Assembly: GCA_022072165.1 (NCBI GenBank)
Contig: JAJVIF010000001.1
Coordinates: 248,001 to 312,000, forward strand
Source: a bacterium
GTDB lineage: Bacteria > JAJVIF01
Length of the DNA stretch: 64,000 nt
Direction: 5' to 3'
The notes under the pieces are model-generated. The model saw nothing but the letters and a program-made list of their open reading frames with translations, ran no database searches and was not told the origin of the DNA. Below, in pieces: positions 8,968-26,316 of this stretch (position 1 is the stretch's first letter; every line of letters starts with the position of its first letter). A program made the translations under genes and the position numbers.

Positions 8968-11406
8968 CTAGTTTACAGGTGCCGTGCCACCTTCGGCAGA
9001 TCCGGTGGATTCTGCCGGCGCTGGGGCGGGCGCTGGGATCGGATTTTCTGCGAATTTCGCAGCTTCCGCTTCGTCTTCCGAGTCCGGACCCGGCTTTCCG
9101 GCGGCTTCCCACTTCGCCCGGACATCTTTGGCGATGGCAGCGTACTCCGTCGCCTTAGCCTCGTCTTTGATCAGCCCCCGATAAATGGGGACCGCCCAGA
9201 CTTCGTAGATCCGGAGCAGATTCTCTTTGTCGTCCTCCAAACCAGTCAGCGCCTGGTCAATAGTGGACTGAATCTGGGCGAGCGCCTTCTCCTGGGCATC
9301 GCGGTCGCCCGCTTTTGCCATCTCGTTGTAGTACTTGAGCAGATTATCGAGCCGGGCGATGTAGGCCCCAGCTTCCCAGGGAATCTGCTCTGCCACCCGC
9401 TCATAGGACCGGTGGGCATCCCAGAGCGCGGAGGTTTTCTTGGTCCCGGTGTTCTTCGAGGCGGCTTCTTCCGCGCCGATAGCATCTGACATGTGCGTCG
9501 CGGCGGCGAGATACTCCGCGGCAAAGGGGAAGGGGCGTGAAAACGCCACTTTCCACTTTTCGTCAGCCTTGGCGAAGTACTCCTTGGCTTTCTCGAAGTT
9601 CGCCCGGGATCGGCCAGACAGGTAGGCGTCTTTGGCTTCCAGGAAGTCCTTGGTCGCCAGATAGGCCGGCTCGACACTGCGCCAGCGGTTGTTCCAGGCG
9701 TAGACCTTCTTGAACTTTGCGAAGGCGGTCTTGTAGTGCCGCTCGCCGATGTCTACGACCGCTTCGTCGTAGATTCGGCTCATTTGGTCCTCGAGGGGGT
9801 CGGTCACCGCTACTTTCGGTTGTGCTTCCTCTACGGCTTCTGTCGCCGGGGGGAAGATGTAGGGCATGGCGAGGTAGCCCAGGCCTCCGACAGCCGCCAA
9901 CACGAGGACTCCGGTCAGAATCGGGCTGCCTTCAGAAGAGCTCCCCTTCGCGGCGACCTTTTTCCCCTTCAGGACATTCTTCGCCATCACCGTGGCGCCT
10001 TCGACCTGGGCCCCGCCGCCACCGCTGCGTGATGGGGCGGCGGAGACGGCCTCGGCGGCCGCCGATGAGCCCCGGCTGGAGATCCCAAGCTGGGCTTCCA
10101 GGTTCTGCACGAGTTCTGTCGCACTCAGACGCTGATTCGGGTCCTTGCGGAGGAGCTTCAGGCAGATCTGCGCGATATGGCTGGGGAGCTGGGAGTTGTA
10201 GATCGTGGGGTCATCGGGCTCTTTGGTGACATGGTCGATCATGATCTGCTGCGCCGATTCCCCGTCAAAGGGGACTCGCCCAGCGACCATTTCGTAGAAG
10301 ACCACGCCCAGGGAGTAGATGTCCGACTTCGGGGTCGATCCGAGTCCCTGTGCTTCTTCCGGGCTGATGTAGTGGGGGGTACCCAGGCTCATCCCTGCCT
10401 GGGTTGTCACCAGCCACTCTTTGCCCTGCTGCTCCTGCGGGATTTTCGCGATCCCGAAGTCGATCAGGACCGGCTGTCCATTCTCAAAGATGATGTTGCC
10501 CGGCTTGATGTCCCGGTGCACCACGTTCTTCGCATGGACAGACTCCAGCGCCTTGCCGACCGCGATCATCACTTCCGCTGCTTCCCGCCAGTCGAACTTC
10601 TCGTTTCTGGTGAAGCGATTCTTCATCTCATCCCGGAGGGAATGACCAGAGAGGAACTGCGTGATGATGTAGTGAATGCGCTCTTTGTAGCCGTAATCGT
10701 AGACTTTGATGATGTGGGGATTTCCGGTCAGTTTCGCGGTGATCACGGCTTCGTTTTTGAAGCGGTTCGCGACTTCAGGATTGATCGCCAGCTCGGGATA
10801 GAGCACTTTCACCGCGACCTGGGTCTGAAGGATCGAGTCCTCCATCTCGTAGACCACGCTCATGCCGCCCGCGCCAATCTCGCGGATGAAACGGTAGCGG
10901 TCGCCAAGAATGCGGCAGATGATCTCCTGGATTTCCGGACGGGTGTTTTGCCCCGAATCAACAGGTGCCGCCTGGAACGATGTGCCCGGGGGCTCCTGTG
11001 CTGGTGGGGCGTAGCTGGGCTCTGGCGCGGGTGGCGCATAGGTTGGGGCCGGTTCGGGAGCGGCGTATGGTGTGGCTTGCGGTGGAGCGGTCAGCGGCTG
11101 TCCGGTGTAGGGATCAAAGCCGGTGCCCGGAGTCGCGCCATTGGTCGGCGGTGGGGCAGCTTCCGGCTGCTGGGCATAGCGGGTATCAGGCACCATGGGT
11201 CCTGAGTCTGCCAGGGGGCCTGCCGCTGGTGGTGCAGCAGCCTCGGCACCGCCGGGTCCAAAGCCGGTGGGGGGAGCAAAGAAGGAGGTGTCATCAGAGT
11301 CCCCGGCTGTAGCAGTAGCGACCGCCGGGTGTCGGGCGGTACCGCAGGTCGGGCACTGGACTGGATCCCCCTCGATGGGGCCACCGCACTGGTTGCAGAA
11401 CTGCAT
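8968..11406 (-). CDS. Membrane Ser/Thr protein kinase with N-terminal zinc ribbon
   Basis: 812 residues. Residues 4-21 form a zinc ribbon (CNQC ... CPTC). A Pro/Ala-rich linker precedes the kinase domain at about 171-440: glycine loop GAGGMSVV (178-185), K200, catalytic loop HRDIKPGN (D299), DFG (316-318), GTPHYISPE. All catalytic residues are present, so it should be active. A single membrane segment lies at about 495-517. About 290 residues follow, outside the membrane, helical and TPR-like. It lies 38 bases after the PilB-like gene and close to two FHA genes, which in general bind phosphothreonine. Control of the pilus by phosphorylation is an inference from this neighbourhood. Confidence 0.88.
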   Translation of the reverse strand: MQFCNQCGGPIEGDPVQCPTCGTARHPAVATATAGDSDDTSFFAPPTGFGPGGAEAAAPPAAGPLADSGPMVPDTRYAQQPEAAPPPTNGATPGTGFDPYTGQPLTAPPQATPYAAPEPAPTYAPPAPEPSYAPPAQEPPGTSFQAAPVDSGQNTRPEIQEIICRILGDRYRFIREIGAGGMSVVYEMEDSILQTQVAVKVLYPELAINPEVANRFKNEAVITAKLTGNPHIIKVYDYGYKERIHYIITQFLSGHSLRDEMKNRFTRNEKFDWREAAEVMIAVGKALESVHAKNVVHRDIKPGNIIFENGQPVLIDFGIAKIPQEQQGKEWLVTTQAGMSLGTPHYISPEEAQGLGSTPKSDIYSLGVVFYEMVAGRVPFDGESAQQIMIDHVTKEPDDPTIYNSQLPSHIAQICLKLLRKDPNQRLSATELVQNLEAQLGISSRGSSAAAEAVSAAPSRSGGGGAQVEGATVMAKNVLKGKKVAAKGSSSEGSPILTGVLVLAAVGGLGYLAMPYIFPPATEAVEEAQPKVAVTDPLEDQMSRIYDEAVVDIGERHYKTAFAKFKKVYAWNNRWRSVEPAYLATKDFLEAKDAYLSGRSRANFEKAKEYFAKADEKWKVAFSRPFPFAAEYLAAATHMSDAIGAEEAASKNTGTKKTSALWDAHRSYERVAEQIPWEAGAYIARLDNLLKYYNEMAKAGDRDAQEKALAQIQSTIDQALTGLEDDKENLLRIYEVWAVPIYRGLIKDEAKATEYAAIAKDVRAKWEAAGKPGPDSEDEAEAAKFAENPIPAPAPAPAESTGSAEGGTAPVN

Positions 11407-13379: not shown

Positions 13380-15440
13380 CTACTGGATGTTGCCGCGCGG
13401 GGGTTCCTTGTCTTTGGCCCAGTCGGGCTTGAAGTTGTCCACGAGGTCGCCACCCTTGTCTCCGCTGCCGGATTCATCCTCACCAAAGAACTGATCGAGG
13501 AAGCTCTGGCCATCACCGGGGGCAGCGCCGTCGCTCTTCATGCGGGAGGGGCTCAGGCCGAAGAGGGTCTTTGCCGACTTCACGTATGAGGAAGCGCGCT
13601 GGTAGTAGTCATCCTGTGTGGAGTAGACCTGGATGAAGCTATCGTAGAAGTCGAGGGCTTTCTGCTTGTCGCCCATCTGCTGCGAGACTTCGCCCAGGGT
13701 GTAGAGGACCCATGGCTGGCGATTGTTGAGCTCATACGCCCGGTAGAGATAGGGAGCCGCTTCGGAGTACTTCTTGTGCTTGAAGAGAATCATCCCGCTC
13801 TGGTACCAGGGGTCGAAGAGCCCCTCGTTGATCTGAATTGCCTGGTAGTAGTTGTCAAGGGCGGCCTGATCTTCGTCGGCCTCCTGCTGGAGCCAGGCGA
13901 GGCGGAGGAGCGGCTCGACGAAGGTGCTGTCGGCCCGGAACGCCTCCGCATACTTTTTACGGGCATCAGCCTTGTTGCCCCGGGTCTCAGCAATCTTGCC
14001 GAGGCCGTACGTGCCGTAGGTGTAGCTCGGCTTGACACTCAGGGCCTGGTTGTACTGCTGCTCCGCGCTCTGCAGGTCACCCTTGCTGGCCAGGACATCG
14101 CCGTAGACGCCATAGAGCTCAGGGTTGTTGCGGTCGAGGGCGATGGCTGCCTTGATCTTGGCTTCCGCCTGATCGAGGCGATTGTTCATCTGATGCAGGG
14201 TCACGAGATTCAGGTAGCCGCCGAGGTAGGCGGGGTCCTTTTCGATGGCCTTGTCGCCGAAGTAGACCGCGTCATCCAGGAGGGAGCGGTCCTTGCTCAT
14301 CCGCCCCAGGAGGTTGGAAAGGTAGGAGAGCTCGGAGAGCACCCAGGGATGCTGCTCGTCGATCATGTACGCCTGGTTGACGGCGTTGTAAGCATCGACG
14401 TACTTGCCCTGGTCGCCATAGGCCAGCGACGCGTCGTACCAGAGGAGCTGGACACCAAGTTCGGTCTCAAGCGCGCCACGGAGGTAGTAGATGCCTTCGT
14501 CTGGCTTGTTCAGATAGGTGGTCTTCAGGTACCCCACGAAACCAGGGTAGAAGAAGGGATTGAGGTAGATCGGCTTGGCGTTTTTGACCGCCGGGTCTGC
14601 CGACATGCTCTGCGCCTTCTGCTCATCTGCTTTGCGCTCGGCGACGGACTTATTCCCCAGCTTTCCGATGGGTTTGCCATCGGGACCGATGAGGATCTTT
14701 TCGATGGCGGGCGGGGGCTCGGGCGCGACTTCCACTGGCGTGGGCTGATTCGCGAGCTCCTCATTGCGCTTGCGCTGCTCTTCCAGGGCGCGCATGGTCT
14801 CGTCGGCATAGCGCTGCAGACGCACGGTCTCTTCGCGAATATCGATCCGCGGATTGGCCTTCAACTCGGCCGTCAGGCGGTCGACTGTCCGGTAGTCCTT
14901 GATGAGCCGCGAGAGATAGAGGTAGTGGAGCAGGGCGTTGCCATCGTCGCGATTGGCTTCATAGCGGGCCTTGTAGACCTGGATAAGCTCCCGGAACAGG
15001 ACTTCATAGCTTTCCCGCTCCAGCTGCACCAGCATCGGGGCGTTGTCCCCCGGCTGGAGCGTGATCATCATTTCGACCTTCTGGTACCCGGGCTTTTCCA
15101 CGATCAGGCGGCGCTTGCCCGCCTGGCCCTTCATGGTGTACCGACTGAGGTCGGGCTTGTCCTGGGGCACACCGTCGATTTTGGCGGCTTCCAGGCGGAC
15201 CGAGGACTGCGGCGGCTGGGTCACGATGACGATCGTGCAGGCCGGTCCGGAGGTCTGGCGGGGACCAGGGTTACCGCCTCCAGACTTTCGGGGGGCCGGC
15301 GTTGCCGCTGTGTTTTCAACCCGCGCCAGAATGTCCGGCGTACGGTTGAGCGCCCAGTTTGAAGTTTCGGCTGAGGCGAAGGTGCAGAGACTGGCCAGCA
15401 GCCCGGCCACCAGGCCGGAACGTAGCAGTGAGAGCTGCAT
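13380..15440 (-). CDS. Exported PEGA/TPR protein of the pilus locus
   Basis: 686 residues from ATG 15440, with GAGGAGGGA upstream and a signal peptide (MQLSLLRSGLVAGLLASLCT, cleavage after ASA). About residues 70-150 look like a PEGA-type beta domain (GYQKVEMMITLQPGDNAP). The remainder, about 270-640, is a long run of TPR-like repeats (for example ALDRNNPELYGVYGDVLASK and NNRQPWVLYTLGEVSQQMGD). In Tad loci a TPR lipoprotein, TadD, helps assembly; this protein could fill that role but has no lipobox and is much larger. It has its own upstream sigma-54-like motif and a downstream hairpin, so it seems to be a single-gene unit. Confidence 0.78.
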   Translation of the reverse strand: MQLSLLRSGLVAGLLASLCTFASAETSNWALNRTPDILARVENTAATPAPRKSGGGNPGPRQTSGPACTIVIVTQPPQSSVRLEAAKIDGVPQDKPDLSRYTMKGQAGKRRLIVEKPGYQKVEMMITLQPGDNAPMLVQLERESYEVLFRELIQVYKARYEANRDDGNALLHYLYLSRLIKDYRTVDRLTAELKANPRIDIREETVRLQRYADETMRALEEQRKRNEELANQPTPVEVAPEPPPAIEKILIGPDGKPIGKLGNKSVAERKADEQKAQSMSADPAVKNAKPIYLNPFFYPGFVGYLKTTYLNKPDEGIYYLRGALETELGVQLLWYDASLAYGDQGKYVDAYNAVNQAYMIDEQHPWVLSELSYLSNLLGRMSKDRSLLDDAVYFGDKAIEKDPAYLGGYLNLVTLHQMNNRLDQAEAKIKAAIALDRNNPELYGVYGDVLASKGDLQSAEQQYNQALSVKPSYTYGTYGLGKIAETRGNKADARKKYAEAFRADSTFVEPLLRLAWLQQEADEDQAALDNYYQAIQINEGLFDPWYQSGMILFKHKKYSEAAPYLYRAYELNNRQPWVLYTLGEVSQQMGDKQKALDFYDSFIQVYSTQDDYYQRASSYVKSAKTLFGLSPSRMKSDGAAPGDGQSFLDQFFGEDESGSGDKGGDLVDNFKPDWAKDKEPPRGNIQ

Positions 15441-15560
15441 GTGTGAGTCCCTCCTCGAGCCTCCGGCAGGTCCGGAGGGGTAATGCAGCGCCCGTGGGGC
15501 GGCAGTGAAGCGACGAGCCTGTGAAGATGACAGCATCTCACAGGATGCAGGGTACATCGT

Positions 15561-15583: not shown

Positions 15584-16507
15584 TTACCCCCCGGATTCAG
15601 CCTTGGCGTTCGGCCCGGGATCCTTGCGGCCCTCCAGCATGGCGTCGCAGCGACGGATGTAATCCCGCGCTTCAGCCACAGCTTGTTCCAATGTGATGGA
15701 TACGCCCGGCATCCGGGGATGGGGCGGCAGTTTTTCCTTCAGCGGCGCGTCTTTTCCGTCAGCATGACGCTTAAAGACATCTTCCAGCCGGACGACGGTG
15801 TTGAAATTGGTTCGTGCCGCTTCCAGCTGCTGTGTCGTGAAATGGTCCATGCCGTTGGCATACTGATTCACGACATCCCGGCGGACCAGTCCGAAGATCA
15901 CATTGCGGACCTGCTGGCGCTCCTCCTGGGAAACGGCCGACCCGACTTCTTTGTCCAGGCGCTCCAGCGCTGAGGAGTAGTCGCCCCGGTAGAAGATGTC
16001 CCGGGAAATGTTCTTGAGTTCGGGATGCTCCTGGGTCAGCACTTTGAGGTCTTCGACTTCAAACCCCGCGCTCATGGGCGGGTCGTAGTACTGCGGCGCG
16101 TTGAAAAAAGCCCAGGTGAAATAGCCCCCGAAGCCCACGATGAGGGCCACGATCCCAATCCGGATGGGGTCGATTTTCGCTGCGGCCGGCTTGGTAGTCC
16201 CGCCGCCGAAGTCGCGCTTGATCTCCCCGAAGGTGAAGCGCTCTTCCGGAAAGTCGATGATGTCGCCCGGTGTCAGCCGGACCTGGCCACTGGCAGGCGC
16301 GCCGTTGACTGCGACCTGCTTCCCATCGGGGATGTAGAGCGTGTAGATGCCATCCGCGTAGTGGAGTTCGGCATGAGTACGGGAGGCGAATTTACTCTCC
16401 AGGACGATGTCAGCGTTATCGGCCCGGCCGATCACGAGCTGTGCCCGGTCGATGGGGTACGCCTTCCCCTGAGTCTCGCCGTCCATCCGAATGAGGTGCG
16501 GAGCCAT
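15584..16507 (-). CDS. FHA-domain membrane protein (second of pair)
   Basis: 307 residues. About residues 20-90 form an FHA domain with the phosphopeptide-contact residues GRADNAD, SRTHAEL and VNGAPAS. A membrane segment follows at about 114-136 (IGIVALIVGFGGYFTWAFF). The C-terminal 170 residues are charged and helical, with no known motif. FHA domains bind phosphothreonine, which fits the Ser/Thr kinase gene in the same locus. The start ATG has AAGGAGAGC upstream. It is the last gene of the run that begins with the TadG-like gene. Confidence 0.82.
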   Translation of the reverse strand: MAPHLIRMDGETQGKAYPIDRAQLVIGRADNADIVLESKFASRTHAELHYADGIYTLYIPDGKQVAVNGAPASGQVRLTPGDIIDFPEERFTFGEIKRDFGGGTTKPAAAKIDPIRIGIVALIVGFGGYFTWAFFNAPQYYDPPMSAGFEVEDLKVLTQEHPELKNISRDIFYRGDYSSALERLDKEVGSAVSQEERQQVRNVIFGLVRRDVVNQYANGMDHFTTQQLEAARTNFNTVVRLEDVFKRHADGKDAPLKEKLPPHPRMPGVSITLEQAVAEARDYIRRCDAMLEGRKDPGPNAKAESGG

Positions 16508-16572: not shown

Positions 16573-17664
16573 TTATGCCTGCGGACTCACGAAGAGCAGC
16601 AGGTACTCGTGTGATGGGATGCCCTGATTGGTATGCACGGCCACGAGAGCCATCGGTCGGCCATCGGGGGACGCTACGGGCACCTGGGGGATTACCTGAC
16701 ACTGCCCGGGGGCGAGTCCGTTGAGGACTCCGATCAGCTGGCCACCCAGCTCCTGGTTATGCAGCGCCTGCAACAGGTGAACGCTGGCGATCGCTTCGAG
16801 GTCGGGGCGCAGCAGAATCCGCGCCGCAGGGCTCCAGCCCTGCACCCGAAAGCTGTTGTCCATGGCGATCAAAGGATCGGTGAAGCCCCGGTCCGATGTG
16901 GTGGTTTCCTTCACGGCCCGCATGGCTTCCAGCGCCATCTGGGCTTCGTGCACTTTCATCCGCCAGGCATTCGCTGTCCGATCCTTCACCAGCTCAGATC
17001 CCAGACGAATCGAGTGCACGACATCCACCAGTTCCGGAAAGCCGGAGGGAATGGGGATATCCTCGGTCTGGCCGCTGAAGAAGAGGTCCAGATCATCTTT
17101 GAGGGTAGACAAAGTGCTGGAGACCCGTTGCTGGGTCACGTTGCGGACGACCAGCATCGTTGCGATACCGCCGACCGCCCCCACCATGACCGCAGTCAGC
17201 AGGGCATCGGCCCCCATCATGGCTCCGACGATCCCGGAGACCACACCGGTGGTGATCGCGCTGAACGCCGCGACGGTCGCGAGGGTGGCTTTCCAGTCGG
17301 TCTTCACCTCAGCGCGCGCCGTCAGCTTCTGCCTGATGTCCTGGGCTTGCTGAGCGGAGATCGGCGAAGCGGAGACCTCCACGACCGACTCCGGCCAGCT
17401 GAAGAGCCCCTCCATGTTGCCGAAGCGGACCACATCGCCATGCTTCAGCCGGTGATTTGCGATCCGGAGATTGTTGACAAAGGTCCCGTTGGAAGACTGG
17501 TTGTCCTTCAGCTCGATGACATCCCGGCTGACTTCCAGCGTGGCATGAGCGCGGGAAAGCGACCGGTCAGAGATGACGATGTCGCAGGTGTCCTGCCGCC
17601 CAATGGTGGTGGTTCCCCGATTCAGGGTCCAGGACTGGCTGCCGACGGTGAGAGTAGGGGGCAT
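16573..17664 (-). CDS. FHA-domain membrane protein (first of pair)
   Basis: 363 residues. The N-terminal FHA domain (about 5-90) has TIGRQDTCDIVISDRSLSR, RAHA and the diagnostic NQSSNGTFVNN, a better match to the consensus than its neighbour. Two hydrophobic segments at about 130-180 (a Gly/Ala-rich GVVSGIVGAMMGADALL) suggest a hairpin membrane anchor. The C-terminal part, about 190-363, has no family I recognise. It starts 24 bases after the tadC stop and so belongs to the Tad run. An FHA protein near Tad genes is known in several lineages; two membrane ones plus a kinase are less usual. Confidence 0.82.
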   Translation of the reverse strand: MPPTLTVGSQSWTLNRGTTTIGRQDTCDIVISDRSLSRAHATLEVSRDVIELKDNQSSNGTFVNNLRIANHRLKHGDVVRFGNMEGLFSWPESVVEVSASPISAQQAQDIRQKLTARAEVKTDWKATLATVAAFSAITTGVVSGIVGAMMGADALLTAVMVGAVGGIATMLVVRNVTQQRVSSTLSTLKDDLDLFFSGQTEDIPIPSGFPELVDVVHSIRLGSELVKDRTANAWRMKVHEAQMALEAMRAVKETTTSDRGFTDPLIAMDNSFRVQGWSPAARILLRPDLEAIASVHLLQALHNQELGGQLIGVLNGLAPGQCQVIPQVPVASPDGRPMALVAVHTNQGIPSHEYLLLFVSPQA

Positions 17665-17688: not shown

Positions 17689-18627
17689 CTAGAAGATGTT
17701 GACCGGGTTCCGGATGAAGTCCACTGCCACCGGTCCGATGGCGACCATAAAGATCGCCGGAAAGATGAACAGAAACATCGGAATCAGGACCTTGTTGGAG
17801 GCTTCGGCACCGAGGCGCTCCGCTTTCTGGAACCGTGCCAGCCGGAGCATGTCTGCCTGCGTTCGAAGCACCGGACCCACCGACGCTCCCATTTCGATCG
17901 CCTGGACCAGCACGCTCACGAAGGAGTTCATCTCCATGAGGTTGATGCGCTCCGCCATGTTCTTCATCGCTTCAATGCGGCTCGCGCCGAGCCGCATGTC
18001 GCTGATCATGGTCTGCAGTTCATCCCGGAGCGGGCTCTTGGGCAGGGTATCGGTCAGTTTGATAATGGCTGCCGAGAGATCGAGGCCAGCCTCCACGAGG
18101 AGGACCAGCATGTCGAGCATGTCGGGCAGGGCTTTGAGGATCTTATGCGACCGCTGCTTCGCCAACTCGTAAATCCAGAAGTCGGTGCCGAACCACCCAA
18201 AGACCGCACCGATGATCCAGTAGACGAAGTTTGGTTTACCGACGAAGTTTCCCAGCGCTGGACCCATCACAAAGGGGAGGACCAGCGTCAGGAAGACTTT
18301 CATGCCGAAGAATTCCAGCGCGGTGAGATTGCTCTTGAGTCCGGACCGGCGGATTGTGGCATTGACCGCCGCGATGCTCTCTTCCTGAATGTACGGCTTG
18401 ATCCAGACGATGACCGGTGGAAGCAGTGGCTTGATGTACTTCAGCAGCAGCGAGTCCGGCTCGCTCTCCTCATAGGTCTCGCCTTTGGTGAAGCCGAGCT
18501 CCTGGCTCCGCTTGGCGGTCTGCTCCACGAAACCGAGATACGCAAAGATGGCTGCCCCCACGGCGCAGGCCATGCTCAGTACGAGCGAGACCATCTCGAT
18601 CATCCCCCACATGTTGCTCAGGTCCAT
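17689..18627 (-). CDS. tadC: Tad pilus inner-membrane platform protein TadC
   Basis: 312 residues of the type II secretion F family. It has membrane segments at about 10-30, 110-130, 140-160 and 280-310. The cytoplasmic GspF domain includes DMLDMLVLLVEAGLDLSAAI and SVLVQAIEMGASVGPVLRTQ, hallmarks of TadB/TadC proteins. With TadB it forms the platform on which TadA drives pilin assembly. It lies 33 bases after tadB in the same direction, the conserved tadA-B-C order. Confidence 0.9.
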   Translation of the reverse strand: MDLSNMWGMIEMVSLVLSMACAVGAAIFAYLGFVEQTAKRSQELGFTKGETYEESEPDSLLLKYIKPLLPPVIVWIKPYIQEESIAAVNATIRRSGLKSNLTALEFFGMKVFLTLVLPFVMGPALGNFVGKPNFVYWIIGAVFGWFGTDFWIYELAKQRSHKILKALPDMLDMLVLLVEAGLDLSAAIIKLTDTLPKSPLRDELQTMISDMRLGASRIEAMKNMAERINLMEMNSFVSVLVQAIEMGASVGPVLRTQADMLRLARFQKAERLGAEASNKVLIPMFLFIFPAIFMVAIGPVAVDFIRNPVNIF

Positions 18628-18660: not shown

Positions 18661-19560
18661 TTAGACATCGATGGCCACGATCTTTGACATCACCCAGTAG
18701 CCGAACCCGACGAACAGCAGGATCAGCACGATGATGCCCCAGCCGATGGGGTCGACAAAGAGGGGGAGGACGAACTCCCGACTGGTGGCGTAGAGCAGCG
18801 CCATGAAGACAAAGGGGAGGCCCGCCAGCATCTTGCCCTGGAACATCGCCTCAGCGGTGAGGGCCTTGATTTTCCCTTTCACCGCATTGCGTTCTTTGAT
18901 GACCTTCGCGATGGTTTCGAAAGACTCCGTGAGATTCCCACCGGCCTGCCGCAGGGTGGCGACCGTGGTCACCAGCATCTCGATTTCCTGCAGAGGCATA
19001 CGCTCGGCCAGATGCTGAAGCGCTTCTTCCGGAGTTGCGCCGACTTTGATCTCCTGAACCACCAGGAAGAACTCGTGGCTCGCCGGCTTCGCCATCTCCC
19101 GGGCGCAGATGTCCAGCGACTGCTGGAGGGTCAGCCCCGACTTCAGAGTGTTCGCCATCATGGTCAGGACATCCGGCAGCTGCTTTTCGAAGAGATCGAG
19201 TCGCATCTGAGTCTGCCGCGCCACCCAGACATTGGCGGCGATGTAGCCGAGTCCCCCTACGATCATGGCGACGAACGGATTCGGCTTGCCTGCCGCCCAG
19301 GTCAGGAGGAACATGCCGGCCACGACGCCCCAGAAAATCCGGGCCAGGATCTGGGCGCACTCTTCGATCGTCATATTGACGAACGAGGCTTCCATGATCC
19401 GTTGCATCCGGCTGGCATCAGCCGTAATGCGCCCCCGGCACAGGGAGGCCACGGGTTCGTAGGCGATCCAGATCGCCCAGAGGGTGAGTCCGAACCCGAT
19501 CAAAAGCACCGGCGCCAGGGCAGCGTTGACGATCCAGAGCTGGATGGCTTGCATGTTCAT
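18661..19560 (-). CDS. tadB: Tad pilus inner-membrane platform protein TadB
   Basis: 299 residues of the GspF/TadB family. Membrane segments lie at about 12-32, 75-95, 96-115, 240-262 and 270-292. The domain has QLPDVLTMMANTLKSGLTLQ, the shared TadB/TadC segment, and VTTVATLRQAGGNLTESFE. It starts 5 bases after the stop of the TadZ-TadA fusion gene, so expression is probably coupled. Partner of TadC in pilin export. Confidence 0.9.
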   Translation of the reverse strand: MNMQAIQLWIVNAALAPVLLIGFGLTLWAIWIAYEPVASLCRGRITADASRMQRIMEASFVNMTIEECAQILARIFWGVVAGMFLLTWAAGKPNPFVAMIVGGLGYIAANVWVARQTQMRLDLFEKQLPDVLTMMANTLKSGLTLQQSLDICAREMAKPASHEFFLVVQEIKVGATPEEALQHLAERMPLQEIEMLVTTVATLRQAGGNLTESFETIAKVIKERNAVKGKIKALTAEAMFQGKMLAGLPFVFMALLYATSREFVLPLFVDPIGWGIIVLILLFVGFGYWVMSKIVAIDV

Positions 19561-19565
19561 GGCGA

Positions 19566-21737
19566 CTACACCTGGTGGATGAAGATCTCCCGGTTCACCG
19601 GCAGACCCTTCTTCTGGAGTTCTTCGTAGAAGGTGGGAATGTTGCCGGTGGGAACGTGGTGTCCGATGACTTTGCCATCCGCGGTCATCCCGGTCTGCTT
19701 AAAGACGAAGATGTCCTGCATGGCGAAGACGTCGCTCTGGAACCCCGTGAGCTCGGTGATAGCGATGACCTTGCGACTCCCGTCGTTCAGCCGGGACTGC
19801 TGAATGACAATCTGAACCGCTGCCGCGATCTGCTCGCGGATCGCCCGGGACGGCAATTCCACCCCAGACATCAGACACATGGTTTCGAGGCGGGACATGG
19901 CGTCGCGAGGTGTGTTGGCGTGGATGGTGGTCAGTGAGCCATCGTGACCGGTGTTCATCGCCTGGAGCATGTCTACGGCTTCACCGGAGCGGCATTCTCC
20001 AACGACGATGCGGTCGGGGCGCATACGCAGGCAGTTCTTCACGAGGTCGCGAATCGTGATCTCGCCGGTCCCCTCGATACTCGGCGGACGGGTTTCCAGG
20101 CGGACCACGTGAGGTTGTCGCAGCTTGAGCTCCGCGACATCCTCGACCGTGATGATGCGCTCATCTTCCGGGATGAACGATGACAGCAGATTGAGCAGGG
20201 TAGTTTTCCCGGAGCCGGTACCACCAGACACGATGATGTTCTTGTGGCTCTTGACGCAGGCGTCCATGAACTGGGCCATCTGTTGCGTGAAGGCCCCGAA
20301 TCCGATGAGGTCCTGGACCGTGAGGGGGTCCTTGGAGAACTTACGGATGGTGATGTTCGACCCATCGATGGCGAGGGGAGGAATCACGGCGTTCACGCGG
20401 GAGCCGTCCTTGAGACGGGCGTCCACCAGCGGCATCTTCTCGTCGCAACGACGCCCGATCGGAGCGACAATACGGTCGATGATGTTGCGTAGCTGCTGCT
20501 CAGAGGTGAACCGGTAGTCCGTGAGGTAGACCTTCCCCTTGCGCTCGACATAGATCTTGTCGAAACGATTCACAAAGATTTCAGTCACCGTGTTGTCTGC
20601 GAGGGGCTCTTCGAGACACCCGAGTCCCAGGGCCTCTTTGAGGATTTCCTCGACTACCGCAACCCGGAATCGGGGGATCAGCTTGCGGCCATCCGGATCC
20701 TCGTCCACCAGTTCTGCGACCTTGGCGCGGGATTTCTGCTTGAGTTCCTCGGGGTCGCCCTCTTTGCCCTGGCGACGCATTTCCTCTTCCATTTCACGGA
20801 TGAACTTCCGATGGACCCGAACCCGCAGCTCGGTGGTGTCCGTCGCGCCCATCTCCATGGTGATGGAAGGATTCGAGGCGAAGAAAGAACCGCTGGCGCC
20901 GAGCGTCGAGCCCATGGTCGACTGGTCCGCTGCCGAGCCCCCTTTGACGACCTGCCGGATGCCGTGGTAATCACCCCGCTCCAGCTTGACCTGGTCGAAG
21001 GCGATGAGCTGCCCGAGACGGACCACCGCGATTGCGGCAGGTGACTGGGCGAACTGGTCGAGGATGGAACCTTCCTTCAGGACCAGCGTTTCGAGCTTGG
21101 AGTCGTACGGTATCTCCGCCCAGACCGGCCGCTCGAGTTCCACTTCCACTTTGCGGGGGTCCAATGGGAACCGGGCATCAGTCTTGTTCAGCACCAGCCG
21201 CATGTGGTGCTTCGGCAGCCCCATGCCTTCGAGGTACTCGAAGTACTTTTTGGACTGGAAGAGGCTGAGGCGATCCGGGAGGGAAAAGACGATGATGAGG
21301 CTCGCCCGATCAAGGAACTCCAGGGAATGCTCGTTCAGGTCGGTGCCGATGTCGACAAAGATGTAGTCCAGGTGCCGACGCATGATGTCGAGCGCTTTGC
21401 CGATTTTGTCTGGCGGAATCTTGTCCGGTCCCACTGGCCGCAGCGTCACCGGCAGGACCAGCAACCCGCTCGGCAGCAACGGCAGTCCGGCGATGAACTG
21501 ATCCGGAGTCGTTTTCTTCTCGATGGAGATGAGGTCGCGGATCTTGGTGTCGCCGAGCTTCCCGACATAGAAGAGGCTGTCCCCGGCGGTCGGCAGGTCG
21601 TAATCGACTAGCGCTACCTTCTGGTTGACATCCTTCGCAAACTGCTGCCCGAGGGCCGCAGCGATGGCGCTGATGCCGACCCCGCCCTTCGAGGAGCAGC
21701 AGATGACGATCTTGCCCTGTCGATGCAGTTCAGCCAT
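19566..21737 (-). CDS. TadZ-TadA fusion: CpaE-like ParA ATPase joined to CpaF secretion ATPase
   Basis: 723 residues. Residues 8-260 are a ParA/MinD-type CpaE (TadZ) domain: [51 protein letters not shown]. The signature lysine K17 is kept, but the P-loop lysine is I22. Residues 265-305 are a linker. Residues 305-723 are a complete TadA/Cpa[15 protein letters not shown], Walker [11 protein letters not shown] (504-513), [18 protein letters not shown] (574-590), [10 protein letters not shown]. TadZ localises the Tad machine and TadA is its motor, and the two are normally separate proteins. The linker frame is open throughout, with no sign of a frameshift. Start ATG has a weak GAGG upstream. Confidence 0.92.
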
Positions 21738-21790
21738 GACCAGCGAGCCTCAGGCAGAGAGAAATGCAGCGCGATGCCGTAAGGACGAAG

Positions 21791-22645
21791 CTATCGGGGC
21801 ATCCCGCCCTGCATGAACGGGTTGTAGGCCTGGCTCTTGAGCATGAGCATGGCGTCCGTCTCCAGCACGTTCTCGTCCTGAATTGGGCTGAGAACGACGC
21901 TCCCTTCGTTCGGATCGTAGGGGCCCGGTCGGAGGCTGGCGCTGAGGGTGCCGGCGTTGCGGACATGGATCAGTTTCTGGGCATTCGCTGGATCGACCGC
22001 CAGTGTCAGTGTGGATGGCTTCGAGAACTGCTCACTTGCCGCCAGCGGATTCCGGGCGAGCTCCTCAGAGAGCCCGATGCCAGCATCCTTGCCTACTGCG
22101 AGGACTTCCACGTTCTGCAGCATGGTCTGGGTGTAGAGCCCCTGAATCGGCATCCCGGTGGCGGTCTTCCCCGCCTGGACCTGGAAGTTTCCGACGATGT
22201 CGACCCGGTCGCCCGGTCGGATCAGACCTGCCACCCCGGTTTCATCGGTGACGCTGATGGTCACGGCCCGCATACCCTGTGGAATCTTGCGGCTGAAGGC
22301 GTCTTCCAGATTTTCCGCCACCATCGCCTGGTTGATGATCGCGCCTTCGGGAATCGCGGTCTTGGTGACATGCAGAATCACCTGATTCAGCAGGTACGCC
22401 TTCCCGCCCTCGCTGAGGTCACGACCGGGAAGCGACAGCATGTTGCCGGTGGCGACCCGGGCATCGACGCGATGGACTTCCACCGACTCCGGACTGATGA
22501 CTTTGAAGGATCCGACCCCTTCCGTTGCCCGGATCACCCAGGCGAACTCTCCGGACTCGTACTGCTGCTTCACCGACTGGATGTAGGTGAAGTTGAAGAG
22601 AACCACCGCGATGGCGAGTGCGACGGCGATGATGATCTTGGTCAT
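21791..22645 (-). CDS. cpaB: Flp pilus assembly protein CpaB (RcpC)
   Basis: 284 residues with an N-terminal membrane segment (TKIIIAVALAIAVVLFNFT). About residues 50-120 form an SAF-type domain, followed by the conserved CpaB core MRAVTISVTDETGVAGLIRPGDRVDIVG and LTLAVDPANAQKLIHVRNAG. CpaB sits in the periplasm and usually helps stabilise the secretin; no secretin gene is in this window. It is followed after 53 bases by the fused TadZ-TadA gene. The ATG has a weak TTAAGGGA upstream. Confidence 0.9.
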   Translation of the reverse strand: MTKIIIAVALAIAVVLFNFTYIQSVKQQYESGEFAWVIRATEGVGSFKVISPESVEVHRVDARVATGNMLSLPGRDLSEGGKAYLLNQVILHVTKTAIPEGAIINQAMVAENLEDAFSRKIPQGMRAVTISVTDETGVAGLIRPGDRVDIVGNFQVQAGKTATGMPIQGLYTQTMLQNVEVLAVGKDAGIGLSEELARNPLAASEQFSKPSTLTLAVDPANAQKLIHVRNAGTLSASLRPGPYDPNEGSVVLSPIQDENVLETDAMLMLKSQAYNPFMQGGMPR

Positions 22646-22803: not shown

Positions 22804-23751
22804 TTAGCAGCCCAGCGAATTCATCTGAGCCTGAGTCTGGGCGATGGCGGCGACGGCTTCGTTGTAGTCGGCCTGGGCTTGAGCGGCCGATGAGTACCCG
22901 TACTCGTAGCCATCCTTGTCGATGTAGTCATCTTCCCGGCACGCGTAGTACTGGGCAGGGTACGCCGGCACCAGGTCCGCCGGGTCGGGATCATCCTCGC
23001 CAGGAGGATTCACCATGAAGTAGAGGTCTTCGCCGGGGCCCTGGTCGTTCTTGTGGTAGTACAGGGGCTGCCCGGCCAGGGTCATCTGCGTCCAGACCGC
23101 AGGACTCCGGCAGGCATTGGCGCGATTGCGGTAGTCCACCTGCTCGGCCAGCATGTCCGCCATGTCGCCGCAGGCTTCTTCTTTGGCATCCTGCTGGGCC
23201 TGATCCGCCTGATTCTGGGCGTTAGCCGCCTGATTGGCCATGCCGCCGGTGTTCATCGCTCCACTCATCGCCATATCCGAGGCATCGTAAGGGTGGAGTC
23301 CGGAAAAGCTGGCGGATGACCAGGGGAAGTCAATGTACTGATACCCCAACCCGATGAGGCCGATGGCCGGATCCCAGACTTCCCACCAGTCCGCCTGCGA
23401 CCCGCCGGCGATCCAGTACTCACCATCGCCCCCCATATGGAGGTCCCCCGGTGGATCCCAGTTGCGTCGCTGGCCGCCTCCCAGATACGGGCGCCAGACC
23501 TGCAGGATCCAGGGATCCGCTTCCATGTCATCCCGCCCCAGCTTGTCATCGGTATCGTCCGTATGGTCCGCCTGATAAGCCTCTTTAAAGGCCCGGGCGT
23601 AGCCCTTGGTGATGCCGAAGTAGACTTCATTGGCCAGCATGTAGAACTGGACGAAGGCCAGGGTCATAAAGAGGATCGGCCCGATGGAGAAGAAGAACTC
23701 GATCGCGTTCGACCCGCGGGAAGCTCGTTGCAGCCTGGTGATGCGCTTCAT
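22804..23751 (-). CDS. TadE-like minor pilin, large form
   Basis: 315 residues. The start, MKRITRLQRASRG then SNAIEFFFSIG, fits a prepilin leader with a Glu at mature position 5, followed by one hydrophobic helix. About 280 residues follow outside the membrane, acidic and Trp/Tyr/Asp-rich, with a Gln/Ala segment (MANQAANAQNQADQAQQDAK) and five cysteines. Typical TadE proteins have 130-200 residues, so this one carries a large extra exported part of unknown role. It lies 33 bases after the TadG-like gene. The 158-base gap to cpaB contains a CCGGAG/CTCCGG hairpin and a TACACT box. Confidence 0.7.
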   Translation of the reverse strand: MKRITRLQRASRGSNAIEFFFSIGPILFMTLAFVQFYMLANEVYFGITKGYARAFKEAYQADHTDDTDDKLGRDDMEADPWILQVWRPYLGGGQRRNWDPPGDLHMGGDGEYWIAGGSQADWWEVWDPAIGLIGLGYQYIDFPWSSASFSGLHPYDASDMAMSGAMNTGGMANQAANAQNQADQAQQDAKEEACGDMADMLAEQVDYRNRANACRSPAVWTQMTLAGQPLYYHKNDQGPGEDLYFMVNPPGEDDPDPADLVPAYPAQYYACREDDYIDKDGYEYGYSSAAQAQADYNEAVAAIAQTQAQMNSLGC

Positions 23752-23784: not shown

Positions 23785-24870
23785 TTAGTGAATGACACCG
23801 CCCCAGAGGGAGGGAAGCATGGAGTTGTCGCGGTACCACTGCGGTCCAAAGAGGTAGAAGTGCAGGATGAAGTCGGTGGATGTAGGGCAGAGACGAGCCC
23901 GGTACTTGGGCAGAAACCCCTCGCCACCGTCGTCGCCACTTGCAAGCCCTGCCAGGGCTGACATCTTGGCCACGCTTTCCATGTCGTCGTGATCATCCGG
24001 ACCGCGGGTGCCGCCGAAAGCCTTCGCGCTACCCACCGCGGTCACCGGTGGAATCTTGTAGACGTTGGGCATGAACATCGCCCGTGTCTCCGGGAGCTGA
24101 ATCACCCAGTAGAACCGGAGCTCCTCGTTCTTGTTAGTGTTTTTGACCCATAGGGGGGGGCTGGCGTTCTTCTGGCCGATGCCGCAGGGAATCACCCAGC
24201 ACCAGATGATGTAGTTCATGTCGAAGTCACCCTGGATCGCTGTCCCCCAGAAAGGCAGCAGACGGCTGTCAGCGGTCAGGGCCGGGACAGGAAGGCCGGC
24301 TGCGGGGATCTGGACAATCAGCGGATCCACCGAGAGCCGGCCCAGGGGACCGAACTCCTTGCACCAGTAGTTGCCCCCGTAGGACTTGATACTGCTGGAA
24401 CCGACGTTGTCGACGTTGAAGAAGTACTTGATGTTGTGCTCGGCGTTTTCCTTCGCCTTGGAGTAGGCGAGGCCGGCGTAGCCAATGTTCTGGAAGTCCG
24501 CGAGGAGACGGAAAATCTGGATGACCGACTCGAAGACCCCGGCGATAGCGTTCGGAAACGCCTCGTGGGGCCAAAGGTGGGCCGGACCCAGCCCCCAGGT
24601 ACCCACCGTCCAGTAGGTGGCATACAGCCCGCCGATGATGCGATTGGTCTTGGTGAGAGCGTTCAGGCCCTTCGCCTGGTAGGTCGCACCAGTAAAAGCC
24701 GCCGCATCGCAGATCATCTGGGCTTCGATCTTGCGGGTGATGGCCTGTGAGACATTCACGAACATCCCGGCCGTGTAGATCATCGTGATGAGAAAGAAAA
24801 AGCTCATCACAGCGATTTGCCCGCGACGGGCGCGGTAACGGAGGGTGCGCAGGGCGTGGGAAACGGTCAT
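23785..24870 (-). CDS. TadG-like protein of the pilus locus
   Basis: 361 residues from ATG 24870; longer starts are possible. The N-terminus has a basic stretch and RARRG followed by QIAVMSFFFLITMIYTAGM, the Tad-type hydrophobic helix, and then ITRKIEAQMICDAAAFTGAT, which is the pattern of TadG/Flp-pilus accessory proteins. Mature position 5 is Met rather than Glu, so it may not be processed like a pilin. The remaining 300 exported residues have no recognisable von Willebrand domain, unlike many TadG proteins. It starts the core run and has a sigma-54-like motif 46 bases upstream. Confidence 0.72.
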   Translation of the reverse strand: MTVSHALRTLRYRARRGQIAVMSFFFLITMIYTAGMFVNVSQAITRKIEAQMICDAAAFTGATYQAKGLNALTKTNRIIGGLYATYWTVGTWGLGPAHLWPHEAFPNAIAGVFESVIQIFRLLADFQNIGYAGLAYSKAKENAEHNIKYFFNVDNVGSSSIKSYGGNYWCKEFGPLGRLSVDPLIVQIPAAGLPVPALTADSRLLPFWGTAIQGDFDMNYIIWCWVIPCGIGQKNASPPLWVKNTNKNEELRFYWVIQLPETRAMFMPNVYKIPPVTAVGSAKAFGGTRGPDDHDDMESVAKMSALAGLASGDDGGEGFLPKYRARLCPTSTDFILHFYLFGPQWYRDNSMLPSLWGGVIH

Positions 24871-24916
24871 GGCTCTGTCACTTCCGTAGACGGGATGTGG
24901 CTGCAACTCCAGGTAG

Positions 24917-25087: not shown

Positions 25088-25690
25088 TCAGAACATGCCC
25101 GAGATGGAGTTCCAGTAGCCCATGAGGGTGCCGATAGTTGCCGCCAGGGCCTGGTACCCGCCGTAGTCATCGACATCGTTGTCAGTGTCGTCGCTCTCTT
25201 TTTCGTCCTGAGAACAACGGGGTGTATAAGCCCAGGAATTCACCGTGATGGTGTAGGGATAGTTCCCCGCCCCGGCGAAGGGGTACGCCATCCGGATGAG
25301 CCCCGCCCAGCGCTGGGGGTAGCGGTCGGTCACCAGGACCCCGGGGCCGCCATTGGCGAGCCGGTTGGAAATCTGGTTGTTCTTGTGCTCGAACGTTGTC
25401 CAGTAGTTCAGGTACCGGTTTTCGATCCCGAAGTTGCGGTAGAACGTCCGGACATACCCCACCCAGTCATCACCTTTACTGTCGGTCGGCTGCGCCATGT
25501 GCGCCCGGGCCGCCAGGAAGGCGTAATAGTTGACGCAAATCTGCCGGTTGGTGGTGAGGATCACCTGAATGGAGGTCATCGTGAGGGCGAGCCACATGAT
25601 GAAGAAGAACCAGAACTCCACCAGGACGCTGCCCCGTTGGCGACGCGCCAGCCAGGCTCGGGATACGGGCACAGGAAGCATGGTGGTCAC
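25088..25690 (-). CDS. TadE-like minor pilin
   Basis: 200 residues. A basic leader ending in ARRQRG is followed by SVLVEFWFFFIMWLALTMTS, with Glu at mature position 5, which fits class III prepilins of the TadE type. The exported part is about 160 residues, aromatic-rich, with an acidic C-terminal stretch (DEKESDDTDNDVDDYGGY). Its start lies 12 bases after the stop of pilin 4, so the two are in one operon, with a hairpin downstream. Role: probably a minor pilin or assembly factor. Confidence 0.75.
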   Translation of the reverse strand: MTTMLPVPVSRAWLARRQRGSVLVEFWFFFIMWLALTMTSIQVILTTNRQICVNYYAFLAARAHMAQPTDSKGDDWVGYVRTFYRNFGIENRYLNYWTTFEHKNNQISNRLANGGPGVLVTDRYPQRWAGLIRMAYPFAGAGNYPYTITVNSWAYTPRCSQDEKESDDTDNDVDDYGGYQALAATIGTLMGYWNSISGMF

Positions 25691-26035: not shown

Positions 26036-26260
26036 TTACGGGTTGTTCCACGGCTGGCCCTGGCTCGTCGCTTCCATCTGGGTCTTGATGGTGTTGGAGC
26101 TCTTCTTGGCGTTCGAGGAGACGCGGTCACCGAACTGCTTGAAGAAGAGGACCAGACCGACCACCAGGATCACCACGAGCAGCGCGTACTCCAGAGCGGA
26201 GGCACCACGCTTGGTGCGGGCCTGGCGAGCGTTCCAGACGAGTTGCATGAGGTTGCTCAT
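26036..26260 (-). CDS. Flp-type pilin 3 (probable major pilin)
   Basis: 74 residues from ATG 26260, which has AGGAGG 8 bases upstream. The leader is 19 residues ending in TKRG, then ASALEYALLVVILVVGLVLF with the Glu5-Tyr6 pair, then a short polar tail. It fits the mature length of 50-60 residues usual for Flp pilins. The strong Shine-Dalgarno site and the strong terminator behind it suggest high expression, so it is the best candidate for the main fibre subunit (inference). Confidence 0.86.
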   Translation of the reverse strand: MSNLMQLVWNARQARTKRGASALEYALLVVILVVGLVLFFKQFGDRVSSNAKKSSNTIKTQMEATSQGQPWNNP

Positions 26261-26316
26261 TCTTGTGTCCTCCTGAGCGATACGTACTGAGATGAAGGAA
26301 ACCGGATGCCGGAGCC

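Follow-up and report, generated by a model that had tools for sequence, protein, structure and literature searches.

A single gene for TadZ and TadA within a Tad cluster

The window, which is the entire 64,000-nucleotide stretch of DNA that was analysed, contains a Tad cluster on its minus strand, arranged in the order Flp-like pilin, TadE/TadG-like proteins, CpaB, the gene tadZA, TadB, TadC, two FHA-domain proteins and a TPR protein. The cluster begins with a candidate Flp-type major pilin (26036-26293), which matches Pfam Flp_Fap only below the cut-off (1.8e-4). It continues with a candidate TadE-like pseudopilin (25088-25690, no Pfam match), a TadG-like protein (23785-24906, Pfam Tad), another TadE-like candidate (22804-23751), which was assigned from its position and N-terminal hydrophobic segment and has no Pfam match, and CpaB/RcpC (21791-22645; TIGR03177, 3.7e-36, above the cut-off). 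Beyond tadZA (19566-21737) lie the TadB-type (18661-19560; Pfam T2SSF, 2.9e-19) and TadC-type (17689-18627; T2SSF, 4.9e-17) platform proteins, the two FHA-domain proteins (16573-17664 and 15584-16507; Pfam FHA, 3.9e-21 and 2e-10) and the TPR protein (13380-15557), in which the better Shine-Dalgarno sequence precedes the ATG at 15440. The cluster therefore combines a TadA/CpaF-type motor and adjoining TadB and TadC proteins with CpaB/RcpC, a putative Flp pilin, TadE/G-like proteins and, within TadZA, the ParA/MinD-type ATPase domain of a TadZ, which together indicate a Tad (type IVc) system.

No gene for the secretin RcpA/CpaC was found in the window's Tad cluster, and the gap between CpaB and tadZA (21738-21790) comprises only 53 bases. 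At two related fused loci (L130 and L131) this position is occupied by a secretin gene, and the window's genome encodes four secretins elsewhere, far from tadZA. Farther along from the cluster we observed genes for a PilB-type ATPase, a Ser/Thr protein kinase and a CsgG-like protein. The kinase gene (8968-11406; Pkinase, 8.6e-48) lies close to both FHA genes, and its product may provide input for the FHA proteins.

TadA forms the hexameric motor that drives extension and retraction of the Tad pilus, and TadZ is normally a separate protein that places the Tad machine in the cell. A first-pass annotation of the sequence had proposed that the two are joined here in one 723-residue frame without a frameshift. 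The open frame, which starts with ATG and contains no internal stop, agrees with the Pfam matches, the predicted structure and the coordinates of that proposal. Pfam CbiA, of the ParA/MinD clan, matches residues 12-221 (3.3e-9), T2SSE matches residues 377-647 over its cut-off (3.9e-65), and the TadA family model TIGR03819 matches residues 333-660 (7.4e-99), with a score of 331 bits that lies below the curated cut-off of 373 bits. An AlphaFold2 model built from a 62-row alignment has a mean pLDDT of 87.7 with both domains folded. The predicted TadZ part (residues 8-254; 20976-21716) aligns with the ParA-family ATPase 3ea0 (Z 28.9, rmsd 2.1 over 238 residues) and also resembles ParA, MinD and FleN (Z 24-29). 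The motor (residues 300-723; 19569-20840) comprises a three-helix bundle, an NTD and the ATPase domain, with an intact Walker motif (P-loop SGGTGSGKT from residue 504). It matches CpaF structures at Z 38.6-41.2, the highest being 8rjf, the CpaF of Caulobacter, with 46% identity over 419 residues. The intervening linker (residues 255-299; 20841-20975) is mostly disordered in the model, with pLDDT below 50 at residues 267-298; its total of about 46 residues is close to the 40 originally given.

A receiver-like domain is absent from the N-terminus of TadZA, in which the ParA fold begins at residue 8. Nearly all of the fusions that we examined likewise place the ParA fold near the N-terminal start without a receiver domain. 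The tethered piece is therefore the ParA part of the positioning protein only, a point that the first-pass annotation overlooked when it described a tethered positioning domain, although TadZ is indeed joined to the motor. Candidate internal starts that would yield a free TadA (residues 275, 294, 296, 316 and 320) had weak or badly spaced Shine-Dalgarno sequences, none being both strong and well placed, and were rejected; TadZA could possibly be processed into two proteins or be translated in part from an internal start. Taken together, we conclude that tadZA probably encodes a Tad (type IVc) motor in which a ParA/MinD-like TadZ part, lacking a receiver domain, is covalently placed before TadA.

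Distribution and origin of the tethered motors

We sought the same domain order in other genomes and used reading frames to tell true fusions from matches that span two adjacent genes. Whole-length tblastn matches were mostly of the latter kind, with a stop between the genes (Ruegeria, Clostridia, Alkalibacillus), and such a match was discarded as a sign of fusion; L039 and L040 were the only fused loci among them. Within Omnitrophota, whole-profile TadZ-TadA matches occurred in 51 of 145 genomes, and all 30 of the loci inspected were one frame. Two small phyla carried the one-frame fusion in 5/5 genomes (one cut by a contig end) and 2/2 genomes, and additional fused families (f75, f80, f123, f150, f216, f222 and f253) were represented, in no matching order, by the genomes G500; G226, G365 and G494; G221; G419; G431; G269, G404 and G531; and G296. 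A stop and restart between the halves, which would have spoken against the fusion, was seen in homologues, but in the unfused architecture only. Among the four genomes examined from the window's phylum the fusion is present in this genome only, and the other three encode separate TadZ and TadA in one cluster; the separate TadZ of one of them (G001) has a Response_reg receiver domain (5.9e-28). That the fusion occurs in a single genome of its phylum could point to an assembly or sequencing error that joined two genes at the linker. We consider such an error extremely improbable, as the same one-frame fusion recurs in dozens of independent assemblies and the genome is 99.1% complete in 4 contigs. 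The fusion is thus real, but it is conserved across many lineages, including many uncultured bacteria, rather than peculiar to this genome.

Several related arrangements were observed. The genome G201 encodes two tandem TadZ-TadA fusions (L183:8887-13287) that are 50% identical and have the P-loops KGGVGKT and KGGEGKT; they possibly form a mixed hexamer or serve as separate extension and retraction motors. A 919-residue triple fusion in G284 (L221:1393-4149) joins an N-terminal P-loop/TadZ-like part to TadA and T2SSF (TadB). In G018 (L016:1483-3408), a 642-residue TadA has an N-terminal part that resembles a partial copy of its own N-terminal region, with a separate TadZ adjoining. An Omnitrophota locus (L040:3983-5122) has a second TadA, of about 380 residues and without TadZ, directly after the fusion. 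G269 and G531 each gave a second TadZ-TadA match, and L208 of G531 has a P-loop. No fused form was seen on plasmids among the best matches, of which the top one, from Paraburkholderia terrae, consists of two annotated genes; a match in Microcystis phage MaAM05 (H46) was also noted.

The N-terminus of TadA carries a different module in other lineages. An FHA domain, which binds phosphothreonine, precedes TadA in Lentisphaerota, Myxococcota, Verrucomicrobiota, Kiritimatiellota and unnamed lineages. In a 50-row tree of TadA domains, a clade with 100/98 support contained all 19 TadZ-TadA rows, 9 of the 10 FHA-TadA rows and no bare TadA, together with two unclassed rows, one cut by a contig end and one with an unrecognised N-terminus; the FHA-TadA of L059 fell outside this clade. 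Where enough flanking sequence was available, 45 of 49 loci with a bare motor also had a separate TadZ gene, against none of 10 with TadZ-TadA and none of 12 with FHA-TadA. Separate FHA genes lay at 11 of the 12 FHA-TadA loci and at no bare-motor locus. These counts cover motors outside the betaproteobacterial class III of PMC12019362 and represent related sequences rather than independent events. The window has a TadZ tether together with two FHA genes, as does L177. An FHA-TadA query also matched, over its FHA part, a complete plasmid of Moraxella bovis, on which CpaB, a secretin-type protein, the motor and two platform genes lie in a row; no TadZ was annotated in that row. The presence of FHA in the same N-terminal place suggests that the TadA N-terminus works like a socket into which a recruitment module fits. 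Based on these results, we tentatively propose that in a large clade of Tad motors this socket tethers one of two modules in place of the free TadZ of classical systems, a TadZ without its receiver or an FHA domain, and that repeated exchange of the two may have switched the placement cue between ParA-type and kinase-type by domain swapping, at 1:1 with the motor.

We also investigated where the window's fusion came from. Because tadZ and tadA lie as separate genes in one cluster in each of the phylum's three remaining genomes, the fusion might have arisen within the phylum from its own genes, and grouping with the phylum was not rejected in the TadZ tree (p-AU 0.207). However, the genome retains a native TadA (C1:27629-28990), with TadB and TadC, which groups with the phylum in the TadA-domain tree at 100/99 support, and forcing the fused TadA to join this native TadA was rejected (p-AU 0.000125). 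A local fusion is therefore very unlikely. A native receiver-TadZ is likewise retained (C3:422366-423580) and is 50% identical to the TadZ of G003, another genome in our set. Since the fused TadA is kept apart from the native TadA, the tree topologies make it more likely that the window's Tad system has a history separate from that of the phylum's own Tad, whether by acquisition or by inheritance. The TadZ-domain tree places all fusions on one side of a branch with 93/94 support (84 with more rows), and a single clade of fusions was compatible with the TadA-domain tree (p-AU 0.444, and 0.517 in a second set with more rows), which would allow one ancient origin for all fusions. The fusions need four changes on the widest TadA tree, with FHA rows interspersed, such that one or several fusion origins are both possible. 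Linker homology was considered as proof of a single event and rejected: against a profile of 31 Omnitrophota linkers, which share a conserved FW motif, the linker of the window obtained -1.8 bits, a value reached by 461 of 2000 shuffles. At L194, a repeated peptide (CGRRTMTAQVQ, 10333-11058) was observed near the end of contig C3, which is perhaps a contig-end repeat or an artefact.

The altered P-loop and the proposed role of the tethered TadZ

The window's TadZ part has the P-loop KGGVGIS (residues 17-23; 21669-21689), in which, as first described, the signature lysine K17 is kept and isoleucine replaces the lysine at residue 22. Codon 22 is ATC, which is two base changes from either lysine codon, and a single base error therefore does not explain the isoleucine. 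Residues K17, G19, G21, S23, D45, D47, D129 and N184 are retained. We compared this loop with 95 other TadZ domains and with further fusions. K22 was kept in 39 of 49 fused TadZ domains and missing from 10. The first fused set (n=38) comprised 34 with K22 and four without (the window with Ile, L116 with Ala, and L161 and L168 with Arg). The second (n=11) comprised five with K22 and six without, namely L197 with Ala, L198, L200 and L201 with Gln, and L209 and L210 (family f123; G269 and G404), in which the entire P-loop is gone. Most Omnitrophota fusions keep the lysine. Separate TadZ proteins, in a set rich in Roseobacter relatives, had K22 in 11 of 58 cases and lacked it in most. These results show that loss of K22 recurs in TadZ and is not tied to the fusion, in line with the earlier remark that atypical Walker boxes occur in TadZ, and make the changed P-loop an ordinary feature of this family. 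As summarised in PMC13170226, which cites Xu et al. 2012, a separate TadZ with a deviant Walker A was reported to bind ATP and dimerise. The native receiver-TadZ of the window's genome (L184/L194) has RGGIGKS, with arginine at the signature lysine and the P-loop lysine kept, and so mirrors the KGGVGIS of the fusion.

One TadZ domain on every motor subunit, as had been suggested, follows from the covalent link. If the TadA part forms the usual hexamer, six TadZ domains would stand on flexible tethers of about 46 residues before the three-helix bundles. The tether would fix the ratio of TadZ to motor at 1:1, with at most three TadZ dimers within one hexamer, compared with the six CpaE dimers modelled for Caulobacter, and would ensure that the motor goes along with TadZ to any site that TadZ takes up. 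The fusion would also remove the receiver contact and allow six TadZ domains per ring. Given that K22 is replaced while K17, S23, D45, D47, D129 and N184 are kept, the window's TadZ would be expected to act as a weak or non-hydrolysing nucleotide switch or as a plain scaffold, with mechanical work performed by the TadA part. We infer that the fusion keeps TadZ beside the motor in cis, in a 1:1 ratio, and that TadZ most likely serves to recruit and steady the motor. Lineages that retain K22 may possess a nucleotide switch, which is doubtful for the window. The native separate TadZ could serve the fused motor too.

Two other readings of the tethered domain were weighed. TadZ lies directly upstream of TadA in bare systems, often by a few bases, which makes fusion an easy step, and two adjacent co-translated genes may simply have been joined, with TadZ acting as when separate and gaining no new property. 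The interchange of FHA and TadZ tethers on the TadA tree is consistent with such neutrality. However, the missing receiver domain shows that more than simple stop loss took place, and dozens of genomes preserve the arrangement, with no separate TadZ at the ten fused loci with enough flank, which makes a neutral fusion unlikely. Somewhat less unlikely, although still short of an even chance, is that the window's TadZ part is a decayed pseudo-ATPase, kept as a fold only and heading for loss. The change of K22 to isoleucine, a long branch of 2.3-2.8 in the TadZ trees and the f123 fusions without any P-loop are consistent with decay. In contrast, K17, G19, G21, D45, D47, D129 and N184 are still present, the model gives the fold high confidence, and many separate and presumably working TadZ proteins lack K22. 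The long branch was rejected as a sign of relaxed constraint, as other fusions, too, have TadZ branches several-fold longer than their TadA branches. Our preferred reading of the tethered TadZ is still that it recruits and steadies the motor in cis.

Comparison with known Tad systems

TadZA consists of the same two protein families as CpaE and CpaF of Caulobacter crescentus, which are encoded there by separate genes rather than by one. CpaE contains a receiver domain as well as a C-terminal amphipathic helix, and a published model places six CpaE dimers round the CpaF hexamer, linked through their receiver domains (PMC13170226). The copy number of TadZ/CpaE at the motor has so far come from predicted models fitted into a tomogram. 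A fusion that naturally sets the ratio at 1:1 and lacks the receiver would show which part of TadZ the motor needs and would limit the stoichiometry, and as a single polypeptide TadZA is suited to cryo-EM. The TadZ of Eubacterium rectale, as described in PMC13170226 from Xu et al. 2012, is ParA/MinD-like with a deviant Walker A, like the window's TadZ, but is made as a protein of its own, which carries an atypical receiver domain.

The fusion also extends the range of CpaF architectures. A 2025 survey of 292 CpaF orthologues distinguished three, with no N-terminal folded domain (class I), an IDR (class II) or an FHA domain plus IDR (class III), and TadZ-TadA is not among them (PMC12019362). 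TadZA, with a folded N-terminal ParA domain and a disordered linker, falls outside these classes, and TadZ-TadA would be a fourth architecture, one that is common in Omnitrophota yet missing from the survey. The Omnitrophota Tad systems of PMC10066038, in whose genomes we found the same fusion, were described there with individual reference orthologues for TadZ, TadB, TadC, Flp and RcpA, and neither "fusion" nor "fused" appears in the text. No description of a TadZ-TadA fusion was found in the literature searched, and the combination of the two domains may already be entered in family databases. We conclude that the fusion is a real, conserved variant of a known machine, seemingly undescribed before. 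Its closest parallels are class III CpaF (FHA-IDR-CpaF; PMC12019362) and KilF of Myxococcus xanthus (PMC8460266), which likewise carry an extra domain before the same motor. There, an FHA phosphopeptide-binding domain occupies the place in which TadZA has TadZ, and FHA-TadA examples from Myxococcota and Lentisphaerota belong to the same motor clade as TadZA.
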